From an uncultured Pseudomonadota bacterium (GTDB lineage Bacteria; Pseudomonadota; Gammaproteobacteria; Methylococcales; Methylomonadaceae), in assembly GCA_903848905.1 (NCBI GenBank), contig CAINHP010000002.1:1-33850 (forward strand): a stretch of DNA of 33,850 nt, read 5' to 3'. Positions 6,159 through 8,015 of this stretch are shown here, piece by piece (positions within the stretch are counted from its first letter, which is position 1; every line of letters starts with the position of its first letter). The notes beneath the pieces were generated by a model. That model had not been told where the DNA came from. It did no database searches and saw only the letters and a program-made list of their open reading frames with translations. The translations under genes were made by a program, and so were the position numbers.

Positions 6159-6184
6159 AAAAGTGTGAACTGCGTCACACTTTT
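6159..6184. promoter_or_regulatory. Perfect CRP-type operator upstream of adenylate cyclase
   Basis: A 26-bp perfect palindrome has 10-bp arms (6159-6168 and 6175-6184) around a 6-nt spacer. Its core, TGTGA at 6164-6168 and TCACA at 6175-6179, is the exact consensus of the cAMP receptor protein site with the required N6 spacing. The right arm runs into TTGACG (6183-6188), a possible -35 box. In E. coli CRP-cAMP represses cyaA, so feedback repression is a reasonable inference here. Confidence 0.75.
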
Positions 6185-6252
6185 GACGTAAATTCTCCAT
6201 TCCCAAAAATATAACCGTTAAACTGTAAGTAGATTTAATGATACAAAAAACG

Positions 6253-6285
6253 TACATGATTGTCTGAAAGGCTCATGTATTTTTT
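6253..6285 (+). terminator. Terminator-like hairpin in the cyclase leader
   Basis: A 7-bp perfect stem (6253-6259 with 6273-6279) with a 13-nt loop is followed by six Ts. It lies 60 nt before the cyclase ATG and downstream of the CRP-type site. It could be an attenuator for the cyclase message or the end of a short leader RNA. The stem is modest and AT-rich. Confidence 0.4.
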
Positions 6286-6344: not shown

Positions 6345-8015
6345 ATGCCTAAAAAACTGACTTTAAAATTCACATTGATTTCTGCATTTTGTGGATTATC
6401 GTTAATTGGCTCTATCTTGCTCACGGTGATTACGTCGTATGAAGTAAAAAGTTTTATTCGTGAGCAACTGCGTATTCGTATCACAGATACGGCAAATATC
6501 ATGGCAACGCAAATTGAAGGTGAGCTACATCAAAGTATTCAAACCGTTGAAGATGATAAAAGCGATGCGTATTTAAAGCTCAAAAACGCGTTACAAATTA
6601 TGCGCGAACACGGAACAGGCATTGCCAATGCGTATACTATGCGCAAACAAGAAAATGGTGAATTTGCCTTTATTGTGGATGGTTCGGAGAAAGATCAAAA
6701 TGCAACGGGCGATATTTACCCACAGTCTTCTGTCACGCCAGTGCTTAATAGTGCGTTAAATATCAATTCAGACGATAAATCTCCACGAAGCGAGACCGAT
6801 ATTTATAAAGATGACTGGGGTGTTTGGCTTTCCGCTTATGCGCCCATTTTTACGAAATCAGGACAATTTGATGGTATAGTCGGAATTGATGTTTCTGCTC
6901 AAAGCATACAGGATCAAGAGTTTAAATATATCGTGACGATTTCCTCTATTTCATTGGTGTGTATTTTTTTAATGATGCCGCTTGGTTTTGTGTTTGCTAG
7001 TCGAATTCGGCGTCCTTTGGAGGCACTCACCACTGAAATGGAAAAAATTGGTCGGTTTGAGCTTAACGATGAGATTTTTGTTCCTACACGCATTTATGAG
7101 ATAAATAGAATGGTGCAGCGACTTGAGAGTATGCGACGTGGTCTTCGGTCTTTTGAAAAATATGTTCCATCTGATTTAGTTCGGGATTTGATTGAGCTTG
7201 GACGCGATGCAAAATTAGGGGGTGAAAAAAAGAATTTAACCATCTTTTTTTCGGATATTGCGAATTTCACCTCTATTTCAGAGCGATTAGAGCCTGAAAA
7301 ATTAGTCGGCTTTTTGGGAGAATATTTGACGGTGGTGAATGATGCGTTGTCGCAAAATCAAGCGACGGTGGATAAATATATCGGTGATTCAGTCATGGCT
7401 TTTTGGGGAGCGCCTCGCAATGTAGAGAATCCCGCAATAAAATCGTGTCAGGCGGCACTTGAATGTCAACGAAAAATTAATTTGTTGAGTCAAAAGTGGC
7501 AGTCTAATGGGCTTGACGTTGAATTTAAAACTCGAATTGGCATTCATACAGGGGATGTCATTGTTGGAAATATTGGCTCTGAAACACGTATGAACTACAC
7601 AATTATTGGTGATAATGTGAACTTGGCTAGTCGCATTGAATCAGCTAATAAATTTTATGGGACATCTATTCTCGTCAGTGAAACCACGCATCAACAAGCA
7701 AAGAAACGTTTTGTCATGCGACTGATTGATTTTGCAGTTTTAAATGGCAAATCAACGCCTATTCGGCTTTATGAATTAGTAGGCTATAAAGGTGATATGA
7801 ATAAAAATCAGCTTTATCAAATTGAATTATATGAAAAAGCGTTTCATTTTTACACAGAGAAAAGGTTTCCAATGGCTATATTTTTGTTAAATAGATTGCT
7901 TAAGAAAAATCCATTCGATTACGCTGCGTATTTATTACTCGAGCGTTGTGAGAAATATCAACTTTATGCGCCAAGTAAAGATTGGCAAGGTGAGTATATT
8001 TTAGAGGTTAAGTAA
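6345..8015 (+). CDS. Membrane-bound class III adenylate cyclase with periplasmic sensor and HAMP
   Basis: Makes cAMP from ATP at the inner membrane in response to an external signal. Order: helix 1 (about 10-30), a periplasmic Cache-like sensor (31-195), helix 2 (196-218), HAMP (219-270), the catalytic domain (about 295-480), then a helical tail resembling TPR. Metal-binding Asp304 and Asp348, the base-reading pair Lys344 and Asp423, and transition-state Asn426 and Arg430 are all present. The Lys/Asp pair is the ATP signature of class III cyclases; guanylate cyclases carry Glu/Cys. The gene is monocistronic, downstream of a perfect CRP-type site, which ties the product to its likely receptor protein. 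No CRP gene lies in the window. Confidence 0.93.
   Translation: MPKKLTLKFTLISAFCGLSLIGSILLTVITSYEVKSFIREQLRIRITDTANIMATQIEGELHQSIQTVEDDKSDAYLKLKNALQIMREHGTGIANAYTMRKQENGEFAFIVDGSEKDQNATGDIYPQSSVTPVLNSALNINSDDKSPRSETDIYKDDWGVWLSAYAPIFTKSGQFDGIVGIDVSAQSIQDQEFKYIVTISSISLVCIFLMMPLGFVFASRIRRPLEALTTEMEKIGRFELNDEIFVPTRIYEINRMVQRLESMRRGLRSFEKYVPSDLVRDLIELGRDAKLGGEKKNLTIFFSDIANFTSISERLEPEKLVGFLGEYLTVVNDALSQNQATVDKYIGDSVMAFWGAPRNVENPAIKSCQAALECQRKINLLSQKWQSNGLDVEFKTRIGIHTGDVIVGNIGSETRMNYTIIGDNVNLASRIESANKFYGTSILVSETTHQQAKKRFVMRLIDFAVLNGKSTPIRLYELVGYKGDMNKNQLYQIELYEKAFHFYTEKRFPMAIFLLNRLLKKNPFDYAAYLLLERCEKYQLYAPSKDWQGEYILEVK

Follow-up and report, generated by a model that had tools for sequence, protein, structure and literature searches.

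A CRP-type operator in a predicted activating position before a class III sensor adenylate cyclase gene of an uncultured Methylococcales genus

Introduction

In the genome of an uncultured bacterium of the Methylococcales, an order of methane oxidisers, an inverted repeat of the kind bound by CRP stands upstream of a gene for a class III adenylate cyclase. The genome is placed in this order by its kinship groups and by relatives that carry names in public records. The arrangement raises three questions: whether the repeat is a genuine operator, in which direction it would act on the cyclase gene, and whether the cAMP that such a cyclase would make acts back on the cyclase's own promoter. A sequence-only reading of the locus had proposed a closed loop of this kind, with repression as the favoured direction. 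Throughout, "the window" means the whole 33,850-nt stretch of DNA that was analysed, and the features on which the argument depends are these:

6159-6184, no strand assigned: CRP/Clp-type operator, arms AAAAGTGTGA (6159-6168) and TCACACTTTT (6175-6184) around the centre ACTGCG
6164-6179, no strand assigned: core TGTGA-N6-TCACA, TGTGAACTGCGTCACA, an exact match
6183-6188, plus strand: TTGACG box of the sequence-only reading, overlapping the right arm and conserved as TTTTGACG along with the operator
6196-6201, plus strand: predicted -35, weak (TCCATT), inferred from sequence, 17 bp upstream of the -10
6219-6224, plus strand: predicted -10 (TAAACT), beginning 47.5 bp from the centre of the operator
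6231-6233, plus strand: predicted transcription start, inferred from the position of the -10
6345-8015, plus strand: membrane sensor cyclase, 556 aa, PF00211 domain (E 4e-26)

Results

The operator as a member of a genome-wide regulon

The two arms of the operator are 10 nt each and 100% complementary, and they flank a 6-nt centre that is not palindromic. To call the element a perfect 26-bp palindrome, as had been done, is too strong, because ACTGCG differs from its own reverse complement and so breaks the symmetry between arms that are themselves perfect. The exact core was confirmed at 6164-6179, as was the spacing of 160 bp between the end of the right arm and the start of the cyclase gene at 6345. 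With symmetric arms around TGTGA-N6-TCACA, the element is predicted to belong to the class of CRP-type operators.

We then compare its occurrence with controls, the genome-wide counts being pattern searches and the matrix having been scored on the window, the sites and selected upstream regions. Across the 2.49-Mb genome (278 contigs) there are 19 copies of the core, against one of a reversed control, and the motif with 10-bp arms, allowing at most three mismatches, is found at 22 places genome-wide and at none in the reversed control. Four of these 22 sites are perfect, and the operator at 6159-6184 is one of the four. Scored with a leave-one-out matrix made from the 21 other sites, whose own scores range from 28.2 to 40.8, it reaches 38.0; the next-best place in the window scores 1.8 with the same matrix and the shuffle maximum is 5.2. 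The expectation that the operator would rank among the top sites of the genome thus held. Given how the core, extended-motif and matrix figures compare with their controls, we take the operator to be a real member of the regulon rather than a chance match, and almost certainly genuine.

Several other sites in the genome deserve mention in their own right. Two homologous promoter regions (G000:C267:1723-1789 and G000:C261:23313-23379) each carry two CRP-like sites 41 bp apart. Another CRP-like site (L184:2591-2616; G000:C235:16090-16115) lies between divergent cas1 and efp, its position suggesting that CRP may control CRISPR adaptation, and one more (L183; G000:C120:500-525) lies ∼400 bp upstream of the gene for a short partial-GGDEF protein.

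Promoter architecture and the predicted direction of control

Counted from the predicted transcription start, the centre of the operator (6171.5) falls between about -59.5 and -61.5, and the -10 is in register. Equivalents of this -10 are present at the same offset before the orthologous cyclases of two relatives, as TAAACT in genome G013 and TACACT in G006. Nor is the offset peculiar to the cyclase promoter: TANNNT starts 47 bases past the site centre in 12 of the regulon's 45 half-sites, where the mean over offsets is 1.7, and after removal of homologous copies and of the window itself it still does so in 10 of 37, where 5000 null rotations gave at most 8. Because the window shares this regulon-wide -10 offset, the operator would lie near -60, which is the lac-like position of class I activation. 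The predicted -35 is a poor match to TTGACA and is not kept in the relatives; a poor -35 is what would be expected of an activator-dependent promoter. Activation is therefore the favoured direction and repression an unlikely one, and we regard the operator as probably an activator site of the cyclase gene.

The sequence-only reading had instead favoured repression. CRP over the TTGACG box would then block the cyclase promoter, with E. coli cyaA as the model for the resulting negative feedback. The box does touch the right arm and is conserved along with it, but this conservation may merely reflect membership of the bound footprint. A good -10 was sought 16-18 bp from the box and was not found, AAAAAT being the sole candidate, and promoter-like matches in the region are not above those in shuffles; the regulon-wide, relative-conserved -10 gives the geometry of activation. 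Repression through TTGACG was accordingly not borne out, and we consider a repressor site improbable. It is very unlikely that the element serves the redox repressor Rex or some other regulator that recognises TGTGA-N6-TCACA. The Rex consensus (TTGTGAAW4TTCACAA) does include the core (PMC2883068), but the left core is preceded, at most sites of the regulon, by G, A or C and not by T, the inner bases AACTNCGT depart from AW4T, the sequence in the window, GTGTGAACTGCGTCACAC, does not fit the consensus, and the distance to the -10 suits an activator. Rex is, moreover, described as conserved among Gram-positives (PMC2883068). That the inverted repeat acts as an RNA hairpin or intrinsic terminator is scarcely credible. 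The 26-mer has a folding energy of -10.2 kcal/mol, but the site sits between divergent genes and a terminator scan was negative, on which grounds this reading was rejected; furthermore, the would-be loop ACTGCG is conserved, the sites of the regulon are informative at their centre, and the spacing to the -10 is fixed.

Conservation of the operator in relatives

G013 and G006 both retain the arms, the centre and the adjoining TTTTGACG upstream of the orthologous cyclase. The G013 cyclase is 88% identical and shares its gene neighbourhood with the window. The G006 cyclase is 73% identical over the 98 residues available, the intergenic sequence has diverged outside the footprint, and none of the window's neighbour genes was found in the 1.7 kb upstream. 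The operator is absent before the 62-66% identical cyclases of G001, G010 and G015, which stand in other gene neighbourhoods. The sequence-only reading had proposed that relatives keeping the cyclase should keep both arms; this is so in two genomes and fails in three, and the latter are nearly without the whole regulon (extended-motif sites number one in G001, one in G010 and two in G015, compared with 16 in G013, nine in G014 and five in the incomplete G006). From the pattern of presence and absence together with these regulon counts, we conclude that the wiring is restricted to one clade among the searchable genomes, having been seen in three related genomes only.

No such site was found before the two other cyclases of the genome or in 35 regions of the genus that hold further class III cyclases, and 20 upstream regions of class I cyaA genes in relatives held no CRP sites beyond chance. 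Since these other cyclase upstream regions are without the site, there appears to be no general wiring of cyclases of this kind.

The sensor cyclase

The protein encoded at 6345-8015 has a hydrophobic N-terminal helix, a putative extracytoplasmic sensor, a HAMP region and a class III cyclase domain, with only a weak dCache-like match in the sensor region and a sub-threshold HAMP match. Residues D304, K344, D348, N426 and R430 (the two metal-binding Asp, the substrate Lys and the transition-state Asn and Arg) are invariant in five orthologues. The catalytic domain finds its best PDB match in 3r5g (E 6.5e-37 over 195 residues), and, like CyaB (3r5g) and CyaC (1wc0), the protein has Thr at the adenine-contacting position (Thr419, in MNYTIIGD). 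The earlier description of a cyclase with the ATP-specific Lys/Asp pair is therefore right as to the class III domain (PF00211) and Lys344 and wrong as to the Asp, whose position is occupied by Thr419; because Thr replaces Asp in the pair, we assign the cyclase to class IIIb. Specificity for ATP is likely. A predicted structure of the cyclase (mean pLDDT 50.5) was left out of the argument. The gene is monocistronic, because radA, which follows it, lies on the opposite strand.

Two further observations concern the same gene. Its sensor half (residues 2-235; 6345-7050) recurs at ∼50% identity in proteins of 700-1200 aa across the genus, and has the appearance of a widely shuffled input domain. 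Downstream of the predicted -10 and before the ATG, the leader contains an imperfect hairpin with a T-run (6247-6285); inspection by eye did not reveal one in the leaders of the relatives.

The regulator and its signal

The search for a crp gene that the sequence-only reading had called for was successful. The genome has eight matches to the cNMP-binding domain, among which the sole CRP orthologue is encoded at G000:C28:14026-14682 (L008); the two other CRP/FNR-type proteins are FNR-like. The orthologue, here the C28 protein, keeps the DNA-reading residues R180, E181 and R185 and scores 271.9 bits on the NCBIfam CRP model (cut-off 266). Its own gene has no site before it that would point to autoregulation of crp (best matrix score 5.2). 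Separately, the genome encodes three short stand-alone cyclic-nucleotide-binding proteins (L005, L006 and L009, on G000:C70 and G000:C126), which are possible further cAMP receptors.

The C28 protein is 51% identical to CRP and 50% identical to Clp, and among PDB entries it matches Xanthomonas Clp (3iwz) best, sharing with it a 5-residue insertion, V84 and a REMAGR helix. The cAMP contacts of CRP are S62, E72, R82, S83, R123, T127 and S128 (PMC11253593). In the C28 protein Ser83 is replaced by Lys and Ser62 by Ala, and Ala84 is also changed, to Val, while the five contacts E72, R82, R123, T127 and S128 are kept. An alignment of 29 Methylococcales CRPs has T127, S128 and R123 invariant and E72 and R82 nearly so. 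We also observe that position 83 varies among K, E, S, T, Q and M across these proteins, the remaining pocket being nearly invariant. The NCBIfam label was not accepted as proof that the protein senses cAMP. On the same CRP model Clp reaches 323, compared with 272 for the C28 protein, and because Clp passes with the higher score the model cannot separate the two.

These resemblances bear on an alternative in which the regulator is Clp-like, binding the operator without nucleotide and activating the gene, so that c-di-GMP, by releasing it, would gate the cyclase gene's transcription; in that case cAMP would be produced as a downstream output and act on other receptors. Clp is known to bind TGTGA-N6-TCACA nucleotide-free and to be released by c-di-GMP (PMC5449483), and the genome, with nine GGDEF domains as well as the stand-alone cNMP-binding proteins, would suit such a scheme, as would the insertion, V84, REMAGR and the failure of the CRP model to discriminate. 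Against this, Glu99, the Clp signature residue at CRP position 83, is Lys in the C28 protein, although the role of this residue has been reported differently, as needed for c-di-GMP binding (PMC10333796) or in promoter binding (PMC6637768). In addition, T127-S128 is kept where Clp has T-T, and CRP and cyclases co-occur across genomes: a cyclase of class I or III is present in 49 of 51 genomes with CRP and in five of ten without (Fisher p 0.0008, related genomes being counted as independent and weak class III matches accepted). On balance we find the Clp-like alternative rather unlikely.

We prefer control by a CRP-like activator, and the mechanism that we propose starts from what was computed directly, namely the site and its conservation in G013 and G006, the regulon with its fixed -10 spacing, and the CRP-type DNA-reading residues of the regulator. 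The genome's single CRP-orthologous regulator would act as a class I activator by binding the operator at 6159-6184, with its dimer centred at about -60. From there it would recruit RNA polymerase to the promoter formed by the poor -35 and the -10 at 6219-6224, and this recruitment would switch on the class III sensor cyclase gene, which is monocistronic, from the predicted start. The likeliest consequence would be positive feedback: cAMP made by the three class III cyclases would promote more of the operator-linked cyclase, whose activity would then be set by its own sensor. Because the regulator partly resembles Clp, we hold cAMP to be only slightly favoured as its signal, and give the closed cAMP loop an even chance. 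In favour of cAMP are the five retained contacts, the co-occurrence of CRP with cyclases and the lack of the class I enzyme in the genus; Lys83, Ala62 and the Clp-like insertion speak against it. A signal other than cAMP, whether c-di-GMP or another ligand, is doubtful. It is also conceivable, though rather unlikely, that the CRP orthologue has a remodelled pocket (Lys83, where cAMP receptors have Ser and Clp has Glu) and directly activates the sensor cyclase gene; the promoter would then either relay c-di-GMP into cAMP or form a positive loop whose ligand has changed.

The class I cyclase, found in many other genera within the family and order, is encoded by none of the 18 genomes of the genus (G000-G017), 17 of which keep class III; judged by gene content, the genus has lost the class I enzyme.

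Discussion

For an uncultured genus of the Methylococcales, the analysis provides a computed CRP-type regulon in which the promoter architecture is fixed. The supply of cAMP may have been rewired here after loss of the class I cyclase, by placing a sensor cyclase under a global regulator in activating geometry. Because the regulator sits between the cAMP-activated CRP and the c-di-GMP-inhibited Clp, it poses a clear biochemical question that can be tested. A search through an open-access library of full texts found no paper joining methanotroph, cAMP receptor protein and adenylate cyclase.

The predicted promoter resembles lac-type class I CRP-dependent promoters in having its operator centred at ∼-60 and a poor -35, and its -10 lies ∼2 bp nearer to the site than in lac. 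In E. coli, a CRP site near cyaA exerts negative control over a class I cyclase gene. The present locus is like it in having a CRP site near a cyclase gene, yet the cyclase is a class III sensor protein, the geometry is that of activation, and the class I cyclase is absent from the genus. Xanthomonas campestris Clp (3iwz) shares with our regulator the DNA core, the 5-residue insertion and the recognition helix REMAGR; unlike Clp, the C28 protein has Lys in place of E99 and keeps T127-S128, and its genome retains cyclases. The cyclase has the Lys/Thr substrate pair of the class IIIb enzyme CyaB of Pseudomonas aeruginosa (3r5g), but its catalytic domain stands behind a putative periplasmic sensor and HAMP.

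The closest parallel to the wiring itself is Clr-cyaF2 of Sinorhizobium meliloti, in which a CRP-family regulator acts through an experimentally found site in direct control of a class III cyclase gene (PMC10127613, PMC5498481). For this reason the suggestion that such control of a class III sensor cyclase would be a separate wiring was overstated. Clr differs in being alphaproteobacterial, in answering to both cAMP and cGMP, and in its box, HGTYHCNNNNGRWACA, and the cyclase is a different one. CRP-family control of a class III cyclase gene is thus already known, and what is unusual at the present locus is the regulator and the predicted activating geometry.
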